Assembly: GCF_033097365.1 (NCBI RefSeq)
Contig: NZ_AP028461.1
Coordinates: 8,494,001-8,558,000 of the forward strand
Length of the DNA: 64,000 nt
Source: Actinoplanes sichuanensis
Lineage (GTDB): Bacteria > Actinomycetota > Actinomycetes > Mycobacteriales > Micromonosporaceae
Reading direction: 5' to 3'
Each line of letters opens with the position of its first letter. The first letter of the stretch is position 1. Positions 7,583 to 21,198 of the stretch are shown piece by piece. A program made the translations under genes and the position numbers. The notes beneath the pieces are model-generated. The model had not been told where the DNA came from. It ran no database searches and saw only the letters and a program-made list of their open reading frames with translations.

Positions 7583-10500
7583 TCAGACCGGAGTGATCTC
7601 CAGCTCACCGACGCGCTGCCAGACCGGCCGCATCGCCACCTCCGGCTCCCGGGCGAAGACGCTGCCCCGGATCCGCACGAACACACAGTTACCCACGCGC
7701 TCCAGCACGGACTGCCGGCGCATGTCGCTCTCCCACTGCTCCGGCCCCTGATAGGCGTCGCCGTCGCACTCGATCGCGAGCCGCCGGCCATCCGGCGCAT
7801 TCAGCACGAAATCAATCCGATAGGCGCCGATCCGGAACTGCGGAATCGGCCGGAAACCCCGACCCACCAGCAACTTCAAAACCTCACGCTCGAAGTCGCT
7901 CTCGCAGTGCGCGGAGGGATCGGCCGCCGCGGCCTCCGAGGGCAGATCGATGGCGTACGACAGAAGTCGCGCCCTGGCATCGTCGGCGAGAAGAGCACCC
8001 GGCCGGACCGAGTGGAAGATCCAGAGCTGGTCGCGGGCCCGGGACGCCGCCACGTTGATCCGCCGGTGATAGTCGCGCTTGGTGAACGCCGCGATCCGTG
8101 GATCCTTCTCGGACACCACCATCGACACCAACACCACGTCGCGCTCGTCGCCCTGGAACGTGTACGCGTCGCCGACCCGCAGCCGCCGCGCCTGGATCTC
8201 GTCCTCACCGATCGCCTCGTGCAGCTGCTCCAGCAGGTAGCCGGCCTGGCCGCTGCTGCTCAACAAGCTGATCACGCCGAGCGTGCGCCCGTCGTACCGA
8301 GGATCCGCGACGATCTTGGTGACCCGCTCGACCAGGGCGGTGGCCTCCTCCACGTTCACGTCGCCGTACCCCGCGATCGGCTGCCGCACCCCCTCCGCGC
8401 AGTGCACGGTCTGGATCGGTGGCAGCGCCGGTCGGTCCGCCCGCAACGGCCGGATCTTGCCGTCGTAGTAGTTACGTGACGAGAACTCGATGATCTGCGG
8501 AACCGAGCGGAAGTGCTCGGTCAGCAGGATCCGCTCCGGCGACCGGCGGACCGCGTGGTCGTAGAGCGACGACTCCGGGTCGAAGTGCTCGGCCGACGGC
8601 ACCCCGGTCAGGTGCCGTTTGATCAGGCCCTCGACCGAGCCGACGAACCCGAGCTGCGGGCCGATCTGCTGGTCGTCGCCGACCACCACGGCCCGCTCGG
8701 CCAACGACAGCACCGGCAACGCGAACAGGTCGGCCTGCGACGCCTCGTCGACGATCACCACGTCGAATCGGGCACCACCGGCGAACTGCTCGATCGCCCG
8801 GTCCACCGACATGACCCAGACCGGCACCGCGGTGACCGCCGACTCCATCGCCCGCTGGGCGTGCGCCTGCCAGGTCGCCGCGCTCCGCCCGGTCCCCTTA
8901 CCGATCTTGCGCAGTGCCGTGGTCCAGTCGGCGAGCGCCGCCCGACGCCTGTCGTCGAGCGCCCGGGACACCTCCAGCCACGCCGACGCCACCACGAGTT
9001 CGCTGGTCAGCCGTCGAATCCGGTCACGGGCCCGCTCCACCCGCCGGGCCAGCACGGCCGGATCGACGTCACCGACCACACCGTCGAACCAGGTCTGCGC
9101 GCGCCGCCACTCCCAGGCCTCCAGGCACGCCTGGCCGGACACCACCGGATGCTCCCCGCCACCGATCTGCGCGGCCCACTCCGGCGCGGCCACCGCCAGC
9201 CTGCGGTACGCGGCGTCGAACCGCATCACGTCCGGCTGCAACAGCACCAGCCGTCGCACCTCGGCGATCGCGGAGTCCCAGCCGTCCAGTGTCTTCCACG
9301 CCTCGGCCAGGTGCGGCCAGGCGGCCACCCGATCGGCGACCGCCCGGTCCCGGGCCACCGTCCGTTCCATGGTGAACACCTCGGCCAGGGTCTCCAGCAC
9401 CTCGGCCACCCCGGACAGTCGGGTCGCGTCCACCGACAGCTCGCGCTGCGGCATCAGCACCGTGATCCGCCGGGCCAGCGGCGGCCACCGGTTCAGGTCG
9501 AAGTCGAGGGACTGCTTCGCGTCGGAGAGCAGGCCACCGGCCCAGATCTCCGGATCGCCCCAACCGCCCTCGGGCTCCGGGATCGCCAGCCGCTGCACCC
9601 ACTCGAACCACGCCTCGCCCAGCCGTTGACGGGCCTGCGAACGGCGTACCGCCTTCTGTGCGACCTCTATGTCGGCGACCGTGCGCAGCGGCTCACCGTC
9701 CACTCGCACCTCGTCGGCCAGCCGGTACAGACCAGGCTGCAGCAGCCGGTTCAGGCCGCGGCCGGCCTCGAACCGCTGACGGATCTCGGTCAGCCTGGTG
9801 AACAGCAGTTTCGGTTCGGCCAGGATCGGTTCCGGCATGGTGATCCGGTGCCCGGACACCTCCCTGGTGAGGGTGGCCAGCTCAGCGAACAGGTTCTCGG
9901 TGGCGACCACCTGGTCGTTCCAGAGAGTGCGCCAGTGCGCGTCGTCGAGCAGCCGGCCCAGCCGGTCGGTCCAGGTGCCCTCGCGCCGCCGCAGCCACGC
10001 CACGGCCTCCCGCACCTCGGTCAGCAGATCGGTCATCCCGGCGCGGCCCTCAGCCCGTACCGCCGCCATGTCGACGCCCTCGTCCGCCAACCGGGACAGG
10101 CTCGCCTCGGTCCGAGCCATCTTCTCCCGCGCCGCCGACGCCGCCTCGGTGTCCGGAAGGTCGGAGATCTCGGGAAGTGGCCGCATCGCGGCCGCCCTGT
10201 CCTCCGGCGACAGCCGGGCGGCGAGTTTCAGCAGCGTGGCGAACTCTTCGATGGTCAGCGGCGCCGGACCCGAGATCGGGTCCGGGATGCCACCGTGCGC
10301 GACGGCCCGCTCCCGCAGCCAGCCGCCGACCTCGGCGGGAAGAAGAGCAACCCCACCGATCTGGTACGTCTGAGCCTCGCTCTCGGCGATCAGTCGCAGC
10401 CCCGCCATCGCGGCGGCCAGCTCCCGTTCCGCCTCCTCGAGGTTGCCGGTCAGCCGGTTCACCCGGCGCTCCTCGGCGGGTTTGTCGAGTGTCGCCGCCC

Positions 10501-11779
10501 GGTCGGACAGCTCGCGCGCCGCCAGCTGCAACTGCACCAGCTGATCGGTGGTCCGGCCGAGCACGGCGAGACAGAGCGGCTGCACCTCCTCCGGCAGACC
10601 GTCCCGCAGCACCCGGAGTGGCTCCTCCTTCTGCGCCACCACCAGGACCCGCTTGCCGTTCGCCATCAGGTGACAGATCAGGTTGCGGATCGTGTGCGTC
10701 TTGCCGGTGCCCGGCGGGCCCTGCACCGCGACGTTGCGGTGATGCGCCAGGCGGCGGGCGATCGACTCCTGTGCCTCGTTCGTCGGCAGCGGCATGAGCA
10801 GCCGCTCCCCCACCCGCTCCCAGGTCTCCGGGGTGTCCTCGGGCATCAGCAGGCGGCTCGGCTCGTGCGCCACCACGGCGGCCAGCGCACCCACCCGGCC
10901 CTCACCGGTCCCGCTGGTCAGGCCGTTCCGCATGTTCTCCAGGAAGCCGCGGAGCTGCCGCTGCCGCGGACGGGCGAAGAGGACCGCCACGTCCCGGATG
11001 AACGCCTCGGCCGACGGCTTCTCGTCCGTCGCGCCGACCACCGCGCGGTCGAAACCCAGACGGGTCAGCGCTCGCTCGAACAGCTCCCGGCGATCCGTGT
11101 CGTCCCACAGATCGACCTCGACCGCGCCACCCGGGCCGGTCAGCGCGGAGAGCTGCGCCAGATGCCTGTGGTCCAGACCGGCGAGCGCCTCGGTCTGCAG
11201 CCGGGACGAGCCCGCCGGGGAGACCGTGACCAGGGCGCGGTCCGCGTCATACTCGATCAGGACCGGTGTCGCCACCAGCGGATAGCGGACCCGCGTGCCG
11301 TCGATCACGGTCTCCAGGACACCGTGCCCCCAGACCAGCTCGGTGGTGGCGCCCGCCATGTCCAGCTGATGCATCCGGTCGAAGAGCCGACGATGCAGCT
11401 CACGGGTCTGCTCGGTGGCGGCGGTGGCCAGCGACCACGGTCGCCACACCTCGTCGCGCCAGGTCTCGAAGTCGTCACCGGCCTCGTCGAGCCGCGGCTC
11501 CTCGGCGGCCGTCACCTCACCGCGCAACCGACGCCGCAGTGCCGCCGGCACCGGCGCCGGACCGGGCATCTCCGGGCGGCCCACCCGTAGCCACGAGGCG
11601 TCGTCGCCGGCCGGGCCGGTCTGGCAGTCCGGATGCTGGGGAAGAGAGTGCAGCCAATGCGCGTCGGACGGCACGGTCCGGGCCGGCCGCTCCATCTGTG
11701 CCCGCACCGCGAGCAGGTAATCAGCGACCGCCACGGCCCTCTCACGGATCGTGGTCGGCGATTCCCGCTGGTCGGCCAT
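7583..11779 (-). CDS. COG1112-type superfamily 1 helicase with C-terminal PD-(D/E)XK nuclease domain
   Basis: 1398 aa. Walker A is VQGPPGTGKTHTIRN (about residues 353-366) after a roughly 350-residue N-terminal region. Walker B is FDVVIVDEASQADLF, motif III VVVGDDQQIGPQ, motif IV LTEHFRSVPQII, then YTFQGDERDVVLVSMV and INVAASRARDQLWIF: a Upf1/Dna2-like SF1 helicase split by a long insert. The last 120 residues (CESDFEREVLKLLVGRGFRP, AYRIDFVL, LAIECDGDAYQ) form a Vsr/MTES_1575-like endonuclease with E, D and ExD catalytic positions. This architecture is found in single-gene and multi-gene antiphage systems. No adjacent partner in the same orientation is evident. It probably unwinds and cuts foreign or damaged nucleic acid in the cytoplasm; the phage role is inference. 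Confidence 0.88.
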   Translation of the reverse strand: MADQRESPTTIRERAVAVADYLLAVRAQMERPARTVPSDAHWLHSLPQHPDCQTGPAGDDASWLRVGRPEMPGPAPVPAALRRRLRGEVTAAEEPRLDEAGDDFETWRDEVWRPWSLATAATEQTRELHRRLFDRMHQLDMAGATTELVWGHGVLETVIDGTRVRYPLVATPVLIEYDADRALVTVSPAGSSRLQTEALAGLDHRHLAQLSALTGPGGAVEVDLWDDTDRRELFERALTRLGFDRAVVGATDEKPSAEAFIRDVAVLFARPRQRQLRGFLENMRNGLTSGTGEGRVGALAAVVAHEPSRLLMPEDTPETWERVGERLLMPLPTNEAQESIARRLAHHRNVAVQGPPGTGKTHTIRNLICHLMANGKRVLVVAQKEEPLRVLRDGLPEEVQPLCLAVLGRTTDQLVQLQLAARELSDRAATLDKPAEERRVNRLTGNLEEAERELAAAMAGLRLIAESEAQTYQIGGVALLPAEVGGWLRERAVAHGGIPDPISGPAPLTIEEFATLLKLAARLSPEDRAAAMRPLPEISDLPDTEAASAAREKMARTEASLSRLADEGVDMAAVRAEGRAGMTDLLTEVREAVAWLRRREGTWTDRLGRLLDDAHWRTLWNDQVVATENLFAELATLTREVSGHRITMPEPILAEPKLLFTRLTEIRQRFEAGRGLNRLLQPGLYRLADEVRVDGEPLRTVADIEVAQKAVRRSQARQRLGEAWFEWVQRLAIPEPEGGWGDPEIWAGGLLSDAKQSLDFDLNRWPPLARRITVLMPQRELSVDATRLSGVAEVLETLAEVFTMERTVARDRAVADRVAAWPHLAEAWKTLDGWDSAIAEVRRLVLLQPDVMRFDAAYRRLAVAAPEWAAQIGGGEHPVVSGQACLEAWEWRRAQTWFDGVVGDVDPAVLARRVERARDRIRRLTSELVVASAWLEVSRALDDRRRAALADWTTALRKIGKGTGRSAATWQAHAQRAMESAVTAVPVWVMSVDRAIEQFAGGARFDVVIVDEASQADLFALPVLSLAERAVVVGDDQQIGPQLGFVGSVEGLIKRHLTGVPSAEHFDPESSLYDHAVRRSPERILLTEHFRSVPQIIEFSSRNYYDGKIRPLRADRPALPPIQTVHCAEGVRQPIAGYGDVNVEEATALVERVTKIVADPRYDGRTLGVISLLSSSGQAGYLLEQLHEAIGEDEIQARRLRVGDAYTFQGDERDVVLVSMVVSEKDPRIAAFTKRDYHRRINVAASRARDQLWIFHSVRPGALLADDARARLLSYAIDLPSEAAAADPSAHCESDFEREVLKLLVGRGFRPIPQFRIGAYRIDFVLNAPDGRRLAIECDGDAYQGPEQWESDMRRQSVLERVGNCVFVRIRGSVFAREPEVAMRPVWQRVGELEITPV

Positions 11780-15739: not shown

Positions 15740-15745
15740 TACCGT
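15740..15745 (+). promoter_or_regulatory. TACCGT -10-like box, leaderless start of helicase gene
   Basis: TACCGT, six bases, then ATG at 15752, with no Shine-Dalgarno. The same hexamer at the same spacing precedes the next gene (17060-17065), and TACGGT precedes the third (18083-18088). Confidence 0.5.
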
Positions 15746-15751
15746 GCCGGA

Positions 15752-17056
15752 ATGGGTTCGAACACGCTCGTCAGCCCGGCCGAGGAGGCCGCGACAGTCA
15801 TCGCCGCGGTCCTGCGCGATCTCACCGAGGGTGATCACCGCGGGGTGGTGGTCGACTCCCCACCCGGCGCCGGCAAGTCGACGCTCGTGGTGCGGGCGGC
15901 CGGGGAGCTGGCCGCCACCGGCGAGCCACTGATGATCGTCGCGCAGACCAACGAGCAGGTGGACGACCTGATCGAGCGTCTCGGGGCCCGCTCACCGGAG
16001 CTACGGGTGGGTCGGTTGTCGGCTGTCGACTACGAGCCGACGCCACGGGTCCGGGCGCATCCAGGGTGCCGGGTGGCGGCAAAGGTCGCCGATCTGGGGT
16101 CACCACCGGTCACCATCGGCACGGCGGCCAAGTGGGCCACGGTCACCGAGGGCACCTGGCCGTGGGCGATCGTCGACGAGGCGTATCAGATGCGGTCCGA
16201 TGCTCTTCTGCGTGTCGCGCCACGGTTCGCCCGCGCCCTGTTCGTCGGCGATCCGGGTCAGCTCGACCCGTTCTCCACCGTGGAGGTGGAGCGGTGGATC
16301 GGCCTGTCCTGGGATCCGATGCAGAGCGCGGTGGCAGTGTTGCTGCGGCACAATCCGGAGCTGCCGGTGCATCGCCTGCCGGTGTCGTGGCGCCTGCCCG
16401 CGTCGGCGGCGCCGGTCGTCGCGCAGGCGTTCTACCCGTTCACCGGGTTCCGTTCGGGGACCGGGCCGGGTGATCGCACACTCGCCTTCGAGCAGCCCGC
16501 GCGGGACGCGTTCGACGCGGTGCTGGATTCCGCGGCCGCGACCGGGTGGGGGTTGCACGAGTTGGCCGAGCGCTTCACCGTGCGTACCGACGCGGAAGCC
16601 GCCGCCGCCTGCGCGACGCTCGCCGCACGGGCCTTGACCAGGGAGGGCGTCGCGTCCTCGGAGTCCGGGACCGGCCGGCTGACGCCGGACCGGATCGCCG
16701 TCGGAGCCGCCCACCGCGACCAGGTCGCGGTGATCCGTTCGTTGTTGCCAGCGGAGGCGGCCGAGGTCACCGTGGACACGGCAAACAGGTTGCAGGGCCG
16801 GGAGTACGACTTGACGGTGGTCCTGCACCCGCTCTCCGGCCGGCGTGACGCGACCGCCTTCCACCTGGAGTCGGGGCGTCTCTGCGTGCTGACGTCACGG
16901 CACCGGCACTCGTGTGTGGTGGTGGCCCGAGCCGGCATAGCCGAGTTGCTCGACGCGCACCCGTCGACCGAGCCGGTGCACCTGAATGTTCCCGTGAAAT
17001 TTCCGGACGGATGGGAGGCTAATCAATCGATGCTCGCCCATCTATACCGTCCGTGA
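15752..17056 (+). CDS. Superfamily 1 helicase / AAA ATPase (first gene of helicase-beta-PrimPol trio)
   Basis: 434 aa compact SF1 helicase-like ATPase. Walker A VVDSPPGAGKSTLVVRAA (about residues 33-50), Walker B WAIVDEAYQM, motif III LFVGDPGQLDPF, motif IV HRLPVSWRLPASAAPVV, motif V VDTANRLQGREYDLTVVLHP and motif VI CVLTSRHRHSCVVVA. It lacks the large insertions of UvrD or RecD, so it is a minimal Upf1-like core. It is followed after 15 bp by a beta-family gene and then a primase-polymerase gene, all on the plus strand. Probably a nucleic-acid translocase; a defence role is inferred from the company it keeps. Confidence 0.85.
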   Translation: MGSNTLVSPAEEAATVIAAVLRDLTEGDHRGVVVDSPPGAGKSTLVVRAAGELAATGEPLMIVAQTNEQVDDLIERLGARSPELRVGRLSAVDYEPTPRVRAHPGCRVAAKVADLGSPPVTIGTAAKWATVTEGTWPWAIVDEAYQMRSDALLRVAPRFARALFVGDPGQLDPFSTVEVERWIGLSWDPMQSAVAVLLRHNPELPVHRLPVSWRLPASAAPVVAQAFYPFTGFRSGTGPGDRTLAFEQPARDAFDAVLDSAAATGWGLHELAERFTVRTDAEAAAACATLAARALTREGVASSESGTGRLTPDRIAVGAAHRDQVAVIRSLLPAEAAEVTVDTANRLQGREYDLTVVLHPLSGRRDATAFHLESGRLCVLTSRHRHSCVVVARAGIAELLDAHPSTEPVHLNVPVKFPDGWEANQSMLAHLYRP

Positions 17057-17061
17057 CGGTA
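17045..17061. promoter_or_regulatory. TACCGT-N5-ACGGTA palindrome upstream of beta-family gene
   Basis: Perfect 6-bp inverted repeat with a 5-bp spacer. It overlaps the end of the helicase gene and the presumed -10 box at 17060-17065, and is a possible operator. Confidence 0.45.
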
Positions 17062-17065
17062 CCGT
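17060..17065 (+). promoter_or_regulatory. TACCGT -10-like box, leaderless start of beta-family gene
   Basis: TACCGT followed by six bases and the ATG at 17072. Same hexamer and spacing as upstream of the helicase gene. Confidence 0.5.
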
Positions 17066-17071
17066 TGGCGA

Positions 17072-18076
17072 ATGAAGCGCGACCGGGTGTATCACCCGAT
17101 CCTGCGGCCCCGCCGGGGTGAGTTCACCGCCCTGGCACACCTGTCGGCGGAGGAGGCCGATCGGGTCGTACCCATTGTGGAGCTGGAGCCGGACGGCGTC
17201 GTCTTTCCGCTGGTCCGCGAGCTACGACCACGTGTCCGCGCCTTAGCCGTCGACTTCGGCGAGGTGCCGGAGCAGGCCGCCGGGCCGGAGCCACTCGCCG
17301 AGCGGCTGACCGGGGTCGGCCTGGTCATGGTCCCGGTGATGCGGCCGCACGAGAGCAGTCTGCGCCTGGCCGAGCACGGCCGGGCCGCGCGATTGCACCG
17401 GCAGGGCGCCGTGCTACGCCTGCGGCCGCACGCGGATGCCGGCAGTCCGACCCAGGCGGACGCCGTCACGGAGCGTCTGCTGCGCGCCGCCGCCCTCGAT
17501 CCCGGCGAGATCGATCTGTTGATCGACCTGGCCGAGACGGCCTGCCTGGCACACGCCGCCGAGGTGGAGGACCGGGCCCGCCGGGTGCTGCGCTGGGCCC
17601 GGGGCGCGCCGTGGCGTTCGGTGAGCGTGGCCTCCGGCGCGATGCCGCCGAACCTGGACGACCTGCCGACCGACCGGCCGGTGCCGCTGGGCCGGCTCGA
17701 CGCGGGGCTCTGGGAGCGACTCGGCGACCCGAGCCTGGGTTATGCCGACTACGGCGTCACGTCCCCGGTCCGACGCCGCGGGGTTCAGCATCACCGGCAA
17801 CTTCCGACTCTGCGGTACACCACCGAGAAGGAGTGGTGGATCTACCGCTGGGCGCGGCGGGGCGGCCGCAGCGACGACAGATGCCACGACCTGTGCCGGA
17901 CTCTGGTGACCTCACCGCAGTGGCCGTCGATCGGGGCCCGGTTCTCCTGGGGTGACGCCGAGATCGCGAAGCGGGCCCGCACCGCCCGGGGCGCCGGCAG
18001 CTCGGCCAGCTGGATCGCGTGGAGCACCTCGCACCACATCGCACATGTCCTGCGCACTCTGCCCGAGGGCCGATAA
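17072..18076 (+). CDS. Beta-family protein (T4-beta-like, PF14350 type)
   Basis: 334 aa. The opening RDRVYHPILRPRRGEFTALAHL followed by RVVPIVELEP, then VPVMRPHE, IDLLIDLAET, SVSVASGAMPPNLDDLP, WERLGDPSLGYADYGVTSP and YTTEKEWWIYRW matches the pattern of the beta-protein family: repeated short beta-alpha units with conserved K-P-x-L-x-x-x-x-G-E start. Members are often found in phage-defence neighbourhoods, usually beside nucleases or helicases; the biochemical function is unknown. Located 15 bp after the helicase and 19 bp before the primase-polymerase gene, apparently with its own leaderless start. Confidence 0.8.
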   Translation: MKRDRVYHPILRPRRGEFTALAHLSAEEADRVVPIVELEPDGVVFPLVRELRPRVRALAVDFGEVPEQAAGPEPLAERLTGVGLVMVPVMRPHESSLRLAEHGRAARLHRQGAVLRLRPHADAGSPTQADAVTERLLRAAALDPGEIDLLIDLAETACLAHAAEVEDRARRVLRWARGAPWRSVSVASGAMPPNLDDLPTDRPVPLGRLDAGLWERLGDPSLGYADYGVTSPVRRRGVQHHRQLPTLRYTTEKEWWIYRWARRGGRSDDRCHDLCRTLVTSPQWPSIGARFSWGDAEIAKRARTARGAGSSASWIAWSTSHHIAHVLRTLPEGR

Positions 18077-18082
18077 TTGTCG

Positions 18083-18088
18083 TACGGT
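18083..18088 (+). promoter_or_regulatory. TACGGT -10-like box, leaderless start of PrimPol gene
   Basis: TACGGT, seven bases, ATG at 18096; no Shine-Dalgarno. Third member of the set at 15740 and 17060. Confidence 0.45.
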
Positions 18089-18095
18089 TGTTCTA

Positions 18096-18935
18096 ATGTC
18101 GCTGACAGCTGCCCTGGCGTATGCACGGCACGGCGTTCCCGTCCTGCCGGTGCACACGCCTGACCTGACCGGTGCCTGTTCCTGCGACAGAGGAGCCCGA
18201 TGCGAGCGTTCCGGCAAACATCCCCGCCTGCGGCACGGTCTGTCCGAGGCGTCGACCGATCCGCTGCAGATCCGGCTGTGGTGGACGTTCTGGCCACGGG
18301 CCAATGTGGGCCTGCGCACCGGCGTGGTGATGGATGTGGCCGACGTCGACTCGGCCGAGGGCTGGCATGGGCTGCGCCATCTGCTCGGCGGCGACGTGCC
18401 GCCCGGTCCGCAGGTGCGTACCGGTTCGGGCGGCCGCCACCTGTGGTTCCGGCCGACCGGCTTCGGCAACCGGGTGCGGCTGCTTCCCGGGCTGGATTGG
18501 CGCGGCTCCGGCGGTTACGTGCTGGCCCCGCCGTCCCGGCACGCGAGCGGCGCCGTCTACCGCTGGATCCAGCGGCCCGCGGTGACCCTGCCGGCCAGCC
18601 CTCCGCCCCTGGTCGAGCTGATCGCGGGCCCGCCACCGGAGCCGGTCGACCGTCAGCCGTTGACCCACCCGGACCGTTATGCGGAGGCGGCGCTCGAAGC
18701 CGAGGCCACCCGGGTCGCCGACGCCGCCAGCGGCACCCGCAACGACACCCTGAACCGGGCCGCCTTCGCCCTCGGGCGCCTGGTCGGAGCCGGTCTTCTG
18801 GACGAGGCGCGGGTCCGGTGGACGCTGACTGCCGCCGCCCGGCGGGCCGGGCTCGGCTTGGCGGAGATCCGCGGCACGATCCGTTCGGGCCTGACCGCGG
18901 GCCGCCGCCAGCCCTTCGACCATCGCGCGGCCTGA
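18096..18935 (+). CDS. Bifunctional DNA primase/polymerase (Prim-Pol domain)
   Basis: 279 aa from ATG 18096; the longer open frame overlaps the beta-family gene and is not used. An N-terminal cysteine cluster (CSCDRGARCERSGKHPR) is typical of actinobacterial Prim-Pol proteins. Catalytic motifs of the archaeo-eukaryotic primase fold are present: VMDVADVDSAEGW (DxD), GSGGRHLWFRP (SxH) and LDWRGSGGYVLAPPSRH. The C-terminus is helical, with no helicase. Similar stand-alone Prim-Pol genes occur widely in actinobacteria, so on its own it is not proof of a mobile or defence origin. Downstream lies a 106-bp direct repeat. Confidence 0.85.
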   Translation: MSLTAALAYARHGVPVLPVHTPDLTGACSCDRGARCERSGKHPRLRHGLSEASTDPLQIRLWWTFWPRANVGLRTGVVMDVADVDSAEGWHGLRHLLGGDVPPGPQVRTGSGGRHLWFRPTGFGNRVRLLPGLDWRGSGGYVLAPPSRHASGAVYRWIQRPAVTLPASPPPLVELIAGPPPEPVDRQPLTHPDRYAEAALEAEATRVADAASGTRNDTLNRAAFALGRLVGAGLLDEARVRWTLTAAARRAGLGLAEIRGTIRSGLTAGRRQPFDHRAA

Positions 18936-19356: not shown

Positions 19357-21198
19357 GTGCTTCAGTGGGGCCTGATCGGTGCAGCTGTGCTCGCTGATCC
19401 GCCGCGTCTGCGGTCGGTTCGCCGGATCACCGCGGGCCCGGTTCCGGATGACGCGTTCAACCGGGTCGCGATGCTGGTGCACAAGCTGATCGATGCTCCG
19501 ATGGGTGTGGTCTGCCTGGTCGACGAGGATCGGCAGGTGCTGGCCGGCCAGGTGGGCGTGCCGGAGCCGCTGGCGGCGGCCCGGGAGATGCCGCTGTCGC
19601 ACTCGTTCAGCAGGCACGTCGTGATGTCCGGCGAGATGCAGGTGGTTCCGGACGTGCGCGACGACCCGCGGATGAGCGACAACCCGATGATCGGCGAGAT
19701 CGGCGCGATCGCCTATGTGGGCGCCCCGATCACCGATCCGGACGGTCTGATCGTCGGCGCGCTCTCCGCCATCGACCAGGAGCCCCGCGTTTGGACACCG
19801 AGCGAGATCGCCCTGATCGGCGAGCTGGCCGAGGTGTGCTCGTCCGAGGTGTGCCTGCGCATAGCGAGGGCCACGGCCGAGGAGGCGAAGGAGGAGGCCG
19901 AGACGGCCCGGGAAGAGGCCGAGGCAGCGCGCCGGGCCGCCGAGTCCGCACATCATCAGCTGGAGCTGCTCGCCGAGCTGACCGAGTCGCTGGCCGCCAC
20001 GATGGACGTGGAGGAGGCGATGCGCCGGCTCGGTGACATCGTCACGGCGGCTCTGGCCGACTGGTGTGTGGTGGCGATCGCCGACGATCCGGGCGGCACG
20101 GCCCGGGTCTCGGCCGCGCACTGTGACCCGGATCGGGCGGCCGACATGGCCCGGCTGGCCGAGCTGGCCGCCGGCTCGCATCAGGACCTACGGGCGATGA
20201 TCCTCGCGGTGCGGGCCCGGGGCCGTCCGGTGCGCTCGGCCGACGGCGACGCCGAGATGCGCAGCCGGATCAGCGACGCCGAGTTGTCCGAGATCACCGC
20301 GCGGGCCGGGTTCGGCGCGTCGCTGATCGTGCCCGTGGTGTCCCCGGTGCGACGGCGGGCGCTGGGCGCGATCCTGCTGGTGAACCGCCCGGATCGGCCG
20401 GAGTTCACGGCCGCCGAGGAGTGGACGGCGGCCGAGGTGGGCCGCCGGGCGGGTCTGGCCGTGGAGAACGGGCGGCTGTACCGGGAGCAGCGGCACGTCG
20501 CCGAGGTGCTGCAGCGGAGCCTGCTCACCGAGCTGCCGGTGCTCCCGGGGATCGAGCTGCACGCCAGGTATCTTCCGGCGCAGGACGGCGCGGCGGTCGG
20601 CGGCGACTGGTATGACGCGTTCGCCCAGCCGGACGGCAGTGTGGTGGTCGCGGTCGGCGACGTGTCCGGTCACGACATCGAGGCCGCCGCGACCATGGGT
20701 CAGCTTCGCAATCTGGTACGCGGCGACGCCTACGGCCGTGACGAGGAGCCGGGCACCCTGCTCACCGCCCTGGACCAGGCGCTGCACGGCCTCCGGGTGT
20801 CGGCTTCGGCGACGGCGGTGCTGGCCCGCGTGCGTACCTGCTGGTCGGGTTATGAGGTGGGGTTCGCCAATGCCGGGCACCCGCCGCCGTTGTTGTTGCT
20901 GCCGGACGGTCAGGTGCAGGTGTGGTGGGTGCCGCCGGAGCCGCTGCTGGGCCTGCCGCCGAGGGGCGAGCCACGCACGACGGCACGCCGATTCGTCCCG
21001 GCCGGTTCGACGCTGGTTCTCTACACCGACGGCCTGGTCGAGGACCGGGAGCAGCTGCTGGACGACGGGGTCGCCCGGCTGTCGGCGGTGCTACGGGAGT
21101 ACGCGACCCACTCCGGTGACGAGCTCTGCGCCCGGCTCCTGGAGGTCGCCCCGCGAAGGAGCGACGACATCGCCCTCCTCCTGGTCCGGCTGAGCTGA
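19357..21198 (+). CDS. GAF-GAF-SpoIIE (PP2C) serine/threonine phosphatase
   Basis: 613 aa, GTG start. Residues about 20-170 are a GAF domain (MGVVCLVDEDRQVLAG, MPLSHSFSRHVVMSG, YVGAPITDPDGLIVGALS), followed by a charged coiled coil (EEAKEEAETAREEAEAARR), a second GAF (about 205-370) and a C-terminal PPM/SpoIIE domain (about 395-613). The metal-binding aspartates sit in VGGDWYDAF, VAVGDVSGHD, YTDGLVE and RSDDIALLLVRL. Such proteins dephosphorylate anti-sigma antagonists in response to a GAF ligand or redox cue. Its 3' end overlaps the convergent gene at 21091 by 108 bp, and its last codons lie in a 21-bp tandem repeat. Confidence 0.9.
   Translation: MLQWGLIGAAVLADPPRLRSVRRITAGPVPDDAFNRVAMLVHKLIDAPMGVVCLVDEDRQVLAGQVGVPEPLAAAREMPLSHSFSRHVVMSGEMQVVPDVRDDPRMSDNPMIGEIGAIAYVGAPITDPDGLIVGALSAIDQEPRVWTPSEIALIGELAEVCSSEVCLRIARATAEEAKEEAETAREEAEAARRAAESAHHQLELLAELTESLAATMDVEEAMRRLGDIVTAALADWCVVAIADDPGGTARVSAAHCDPDRAADMARLAELAAGSHQDLRAMILAVRARGRPVRSADGDAEMRSRISDAELSEITARAGFGASLIVPVVSPVRRRALGAILLVNRPDRPEFTAAEEWTAAEVGRRAGLAVENGRLYREQRHVAEVLQRSLLTELPVLPGIELHARYLPAQDGAAVGGDWYDAFAQPDGSVVVAVGDVSGHDIEAAATMGQLRNLVRGDAYGRDEEPGTLLTALDQALHGLRVSASATAVLARVRTCWSGYEVGFANAGHPPPLLLLPDGQVQVWWVPPEPLLGLPPRGEPRTTARRFVPAGSTLVLYTDGLVEDREQLLDDGVARLSAVLREYATHSGDELCARLLEVAPRRSDDIALLLVRLS

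Follow-up and report, generated by a model that had tools for sequence, protein, structure and literature searches.

The window analyzed here, a 64,000-nucleotide (nt) stretch of the 12.14-Mb genome of Actinoplanes sichuanensis (NZ_AP028461.1, positions 8,494,001 to 8,558,000), carries three collinear genes, called A, B, and C below, which encode a minimal helicase or ATPase, a Beta_protein family member, and a stand-alone primase-polymerase (Prim-Pol). A LexA-type (SOS) operator abuts the start codon of gene C and encloses its −10 box. Judged from sequence comparison, we think it likely that this locus comprises two independent leaderless neighbors and a LexA-repressed, SOS-induced stand-alone Prim-Pol, probably serving in repriming or gap filling. 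The central features are as follows.

15752-17056, + strand: gene A, 434 amino acids (from the list of open reading frames [ORFs] and Pfam)
17072-18076, + strand: gene B, 334 amino acids (ORF list and Pfam)
18096-18935, + strand: gene C, 279 amino acids (ORF list and Pfam)
18080-18095, + strand: LexA-type (SOS) operator TCGTACGGTTGTTCTA, flush with the ATG of C and enclosing the −10 box TACGGT (palindrome match and conservation)
18083-18088, + strand: −10 box of C, TACGGT, with a 7-bp spacer, within the LexA-type operator

In the mechanism that we propose, a stretch of Actinoplanes-clade chromosome inherited vertically would hold three unrelated genes, each with its own leaderless promoter. 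Ordinary −10 boxes would drive A and B, and LexA would repress C through the 16-bp operator, which covers the −10 box and extends to the start codon. Upon DNA damage, RecA filaments would form, LexA would cleave itself, the operator would be cleared, and a leaderless C mRNA would be produced; the C protein would then probably prime, or fill gaps, past blocking lesions (repriming). LexA binding, SOS induction, the leaderless mRNA, and the repriming role are steps that we infer, and repriming is the weakest of them.

RESULTS

A LexA-type operator is conserved at gene C and not at A or B

Forty-four loci of the Actinoplanes clade were collected by means of gene B, whose identity to its closest named relatives is 89% (Actinoplanes philippinensis) and 87% (A. 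italicus). Across these loci, the 16 bp immediately ahead of the start of C, tCGTACgcTTGTTCtA, hold most of the upstream conservation, which is low farther out. A match to TCGAAC-N4-GTTCGA with at most two mismatches was found ahead of C at 40 of 43 loci (7 with one mismatch and 33 with two) and ahead of A and B at 0 of 44 loci each, and letter-shuffled upstream sequences reach this level in 0.1 to 0.6% of cases. A sequence-only reading of this DNA had proposed common control of the trio; the restriction of the operator to C does not bear this out.

The same type of box occurs elsewhere in this genome. The pattern TCGWACNNNNGTTCKA was present at 15 distinct sites, versus 0 for a reversed control, and the looser pattern CGAACNNNNGTTYG gave 79 rows (with palindromic sites counted twice) versus 6. 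Upstream of the best lexA homolog, one TCGWACNNNNGTTCKA site lies among four boxes of 1 to 3 mismatches, 280 to 390 bp before the first matched base, and the lexA-upstream box and the C box agree at 14 of 16 letters. Upstream of recA, TCGTACAGGTGTTCGG stands 174 bp before the first matched base. In 61 genomes of the family, the TCGTAC form TCGTACNNNNGTTCKA occurred 274 times, versus 25 times for the control. In Streptomyces venezuelae, LexA has the consensus tCGAAC-N4-GNNCGa; the purified protein bound a dnaE2 box of the TCGTAC type, although more weakly than some others (PMC9380542).

Two minor observations concern LexA-like boxes elsewhere. Three copies of a TnpB-like transposase, named by eye (L082, L083, and L084; G000:C1 ~2036000, 2075240, and 3009660), have a start that overlaps the LexA-like palindrome TCGTACG..TGTTCTA; this could be an SOS link or chance in one repeated element. 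On the minus strand of L093, an ORF resembling a radical SAM protein (by eye) begins ~9 bp after the LexA-like box TAGAACGTGTGTTCGA, and the S. venezuelae SOS regulon includes a radical SAM gene (PMC9380542).

Gene C encodes a predicted stand-alone Prim-Pol

The C protein matches the Prim-Pol family PF09250 (E value, 1.5e-36; 126.7 bits against a curated cutoff of 22.8), within the archaeo-eukaryotic primase (AEP) superfamily. The protein has a C-terminal helical part, and no helicase domain was found in C. In an alignment of 13 sequences, C28, C30, C36, H42, D80, D83, D85, H115, and D134 are invariant; we take D80, D83, D85, H115, and D134 to be the catalytic acidic residues and histidine and C28, C30, C36, and H42 to be zinc binding.

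Among PHROG profiles, C matched phage DNA primases and primase-polymerases (phrog_5852 at 2.8e-36), and its residues 11 to 269 align to phrog_695 over profile positions 17 to 268 of 704 only. C resembles such a phage protein minus its later part. One reading is that C was domesticated from the replication primase of a phage or plasmid, that its SOS control is left over from prophage induction, and that it plays no part in host repair. However, C has stayed at one locus in all but 1 of the 44 clade loci, its presumed catalytic and zinc-binding residues are invariant in the 13 sequences, and boxed C homologs persist at other loci in other family genomes. Together these features argue for a host function, and we regard domestication without such a function as unlikely, if worth keeping in mind.

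LexA-like boxes recur at C homologs away from the trio

We examined 23 C homologs outside the trio, namely, 20 from other family genomes, chosen among the better matches, and 3 paralogs in this genome; a homolog in G042, which had no box in a separate check, and a second copy in G058 were passed over. A box with at most two mismatches lay within 250 bp upstream of 10 of the 23. In 9 of these 10, a TANNNT sequence begins 0 to 1 bp after the box, so operator and promoter overlap there too, in a different arrangement. On a tree of C proteins (37 rows), the box label required 4 changes, compared to 11.0 in shuffles, and none of 500 shuffles was as low. Twenty-four rows were labeled boxed; 14 of them are trio loci, two of these (L049 and L061) with 3 and 4 mismatches, so the clustering partly reflects relatedness. 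At one of the loci outside the trio (L149, 3830-5920), the C homolog is divergent from a gene for an AlkZ-like DNA glycosylase, with a LexA-like box between them.

These data also bear on whether the 16-mer before C is merely an extended leaderless promoter, or the operator of another regulator, and not a LexA site. The −10 box does account for the conserved T, A, and T within the 16-mer. On the other hand, spacer conservation at the same loci is weaker in the promoters of A and B; the right half, GTTCGA/GTTCTA, lies outside the −10 box yet is conserved, and it recurs at C promoters away from the trio, where the −10 box comes just after the 16-mer; and lexA and recA of this genome have the same box type upstream. 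We consider a non-LexA origin of the 16-mer quite improbable.

Several observations weigh against C being a LexA-repressed repriming enzyme. At the operator, three of the 43 trio loci carry 3, 3, and 4 mismatches, the C box TCGTACGGTTGTTCTA itself departs from the perfect palindrome at 2 positions, and the T at box position 4 is also required by the −10 box (this T is the reason that TAC..T can act as a −10 box inside the operator). Three of the 15 TCGWACNNNNGTTCKA sites in this genome belong to copies of a single transposase, and for most others no repair gene was assigned. Three matches to the LexA profile exceed the curated cutoff in this genome (G000:C1 10906483-10907106, 7043145-7043744, and 3549422-3550027), and the upstream box result covers the best one. 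No box was found at 13 of the 23 C homologs away from the trio, including all three paralogs in this genome. The genes beside such homologs (10 proteins scanned) mostly point to functions outside replication: GNAT, glycogen debranching, phytase-like, aldo-keto reductase, HSP70-TIR, HSP90, DUF5682, and lactate permease proteins and one AlkZ-like glycosylase. Finally, the fold model of C was poor (predicted local distance difference test [pLDDT] score, 57.9), too poor for a structure search, and a sequence search of solved structures gave no match to C, so the predicted primase activity rests on Pfam and the motif residues.

Comparison with known SOS targets and primases

What is new at this locus is a stand-alone Prim-Pol gene with a LexA-type operator; the start boxes themselves are ordinary. 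The arrangement resembles the LexA/RecA SOS regulon of S. venezuelae in its 16-bp palindrome, in the acceptance of TCGTAC half-sites, and in the presence of same-type boxes at lexA and recA. It differs in that the target is a stand-alone Prim-Pol and that the operator is flush against a predicted leaderless start; the words "primase" and "Prim-Pol" do not occur in the main text of the article on that regulon (PMC9380542). A literature search, which was not exhaustive and left most subscription journals outside its coverage, found no report of an SOS-controlled Prim-Pol.

Like eukaryotic PrimPol, C belongs to the AEP superfamily, has the presumed zinc-binding and catalytic residues, and is proposed to act at damaged DNA. 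Unlike PrimPol, it is a bacterial protein of another family (PF09250) with a LexA-type operator, and its activity is predicted. A review describes a specialized DNA-primer-making enzyme of the PrimPol kind as absent from its model bacteria (PMC12448304). Mycobacterial Prim-PolC and LigD PolDom are likewise bacterial AEP enzymes in repair (PMC8136793, PMC12593503), but they work with DNA ligase C or with Ku-LigD, and C is set apart by its SOS-type box and by its neighbors A, B, and the SpoIIE phosphatase gene.

If C is SOS induced and reprimes, bacteria would own a primase that is induced by damage and dedicated to it, comparable to eukaryotic PrimPol, and would do so in organisms whose genes can be deleted. 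The regulatory design would also be compact, with a repressor operator that takes in the −10 box and reaches exactly as far as a leaderless gene's start codon. More tentatively, and with the odds somewhat against it, a LexA-controlled, PrimPol-like repriming enzyme could be a regular SOS function of the Micromonosporaceae, with its operator fused to a leaderless promoter, acting in parallel to the translesion polymerases.

Each gene has its own start box

The putative promoters of the other two genes are as follows.

15740-15751, + strand: putative leaderless promoter of A, TACCGT at 15740-15745 with a 6-bp spacer to the ATG
17060-17071, + strand: putative leaderless promoter of B, TACCGT at 17060-17065 with a 6-bp spacer

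As the sequence-only reading had described, the three genes lie in line on the + strand with gaps of 15 bp (A-B, 17057-17071) and 19 bp (B-C, 18077-18095), and TACCGT, TACCGT, and TACGGT stand 6, 6, and 7 bp ahead of the starts of A, B, and C. Within the window (both strands), TANNNT occurs 6 to 7 bp before 9 of 994 ATG codons, and TACCGT or TACGGT occurs at that distance before only 3 of them, the starts of A, B, and C. The box is also kept in relatives. Box counts were made on up to 46 loci (the 44 clade loci, the window itself, and one further genome, possibly a duplicate of one of the 44), where TANNNT was found 6 to 7 bp before an in-frame start of A in 43/46, of B in 44/46, and of C in 44/45 loci. 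These counts are far above chance; they lean somewhat towards the box, since, of the in-frame starts preceded by a box, the one closest to where the start was expected was chosen, up to 130 nt away.

The letters of the box vary by gene among relatives, being mostly TACGGT/TACCGT at A, TACTTT at B, and TACGCT/TACACT at C. All 44 B boxes have a spacer of 6 and an ATG start, and GTG is the start codon in 38 of 43 A orthologs. Because the commonest letters differ by gene, the near identity of the boxes in this species is partly coincidence. The boxes are ordinary −10 elements, and a common −10 box does not equal a common regulator. The −10 motif of Actinoplanes sp. SE50/110 is TAnnnT, and in that strain 1,179 of 4,228 transcription start sites are leaderless (14.03% of coding sequences), defined as lying no more than 3 nt from the start codon (PMC7682106). 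With leaderless starts so frequent there, three consecutive leaderless genes are not extraordinary in themselves.

Nearly all loci keep TANNNT before each gene, even those with an inverted A or a long B-C distance, which supports, by inference, separate transcription of A, B, and C from their own leaderless promoters. The sequence-only reading had favored separate transcripts over an operon and placed them under shared control; the first part thus gains support, and the second fails on the confinement of the LexA-type operator to C.

Adjacency of the trio was seen in one clade

Downstream of the trio lies one further conserved gene.

19357-21198, + strand: GAF-SpoIIE phosphatase gene (Pfam SpoIIE, 3.2e-39), present at 41/44 relatives' loci

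Within the clade, A is on the same strand as B at 31 of 44 loci and inverted (divergent) at 13. C follows B at 43 of 44 loci, and the 44th contig ends before C would be reached. The B-C spacing ranges from 16 to 2,522 bp and exceeds 200 bp at 9 of 43 loci (one further locus, L040, gives −68, from an uncertain frame). The phosphatase gene stays downstream of the trio.

Presence in wider samples was counted among the matches listed per genome, so that some absences may be misses. In 101 Micromonosporaceae genomes (E value cutoffs, ≤1e-30 for A, ≤0.001 for B, and ≤1e-10 for C-like proteins), A was found in at least 59, B in at least 19, and C-like proteins in at least 52. Adjacency of A, B, and C was seen, among those matches, only in five genomes of the same genus and one close relative (G028). 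Genus g4 has B without C in five genomes among the matches listed, four of which also carry A, 22 to 52 kb from B. In 246 genomes of the class (cutoffs, ≤1e-40 for A and ≤1e-30 for C), at least 38 had A, at least 8 had B, and at least 2 had C; no A-B-C cluster outside the family was found among the matches listed, and in genomes outside the family with both A and B, the two either lay far from each other or sat on separate contigs. The search for conserved co-occurrence and order beyond close relatives thus placed the adjacency of the trio, among the matches listed, in the Actinoplanes clade only. One genome, G037, counts the other way: its A and B are ~5 kb apart and divergent, its sole C-like match lies elsewhere, and an old A-B neighborhood wider than the trio may have existed.

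We therefore rejected, on synteny, orientation, and operator evidence and with G037 as the exception, the three-gene nucleic acid sensing or processing module that the sequence-only reading had put forward, together with common control. That A, B, and C form a single functional nucleic acid processing or antiphage module is very unlikely: they do occur together at 43 of the 44 clade loci found with B, B shows homology to PD-lambda-2C and, less strongly, to P4 beta (both parts of antiphage systems), and G037 has A and B near each other, but against this stand the inversions of A and the variable B-C spacing, the wide occurrence of A without B or C, the C orthologs without an adjoining A or B, the operator at C only, and a synteny with the SpoIIE phosphatase gene that is fixed, unlike that of a defense island. 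By these comparisons, the locus is a vertically kept neighborhood and not a transferable unit.

Gene B

B belongs to the Beta_protein family (PF14350, 3e-79) and matches PADLOC PD-Lambda-2_C at 2.5e-32 and P4 beta more weakly. Its structure model (pLDDT, 73.8) has mostly TIM-barrel enzymes as closest PDB neighbors and predicts a TIM-barrel-like domain followed by a poorly modeled C-terminal part; the "unknown biochemistry" assigned to B is now replaced by a testable TIM-barrel model. A sequence search of solved structures gave no match for B alone and one weak match (E value, 0.44) for a B alignment. A structural relative was found in Gordonia phage Powerball (TMq, 0.75), and a DNA scan confirmed no viral relatives.

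The homology of B to PD-lambda-2C, and more weakly to beta, recalls the PD-lambda-2 and gop-beta-cII antiphage systems, and the third component of PD-lambda-2 is present here as B. The partners are what differ: A, C, a 1,398-amino-acid protein described below, and eight neighbors gave no PADLOC match to a HigB-like toxin, a HigA-peptidase, or gop. Membership in PD-lambda-2 was rejected on the absence of the partner genes among those scanned.

Gene A and a second helicase gene in the window

A encodes a minimal superfamily 1 (SF1) helicase or ATPase of the DNA2/SMUBP2/UPF1-like kind, with AAA_30, AAA_11, AAA_12, and AAA_19 of Pfam above cutoff and matches to the PDB sequences of DNA2 (5.4e-07) and SMUBP-2 (4.4e-06). 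At four loci the A match is broken by ~210 to 270 bp, near residues 209 to 222 in L027 and near residues 246 to 255 in L053, L055, and L056. The window holds a second SF1 helicase gene, of 1,398 amino acids (7583-11779, − strand), whose product carries an MTES_1575 restriction endonuclease domain and resembles PDC-S37, MkoA, and Hhe in PADLOC; a TANNNT box (TACACT) likewise stands 6 bp ahead of its ATG.

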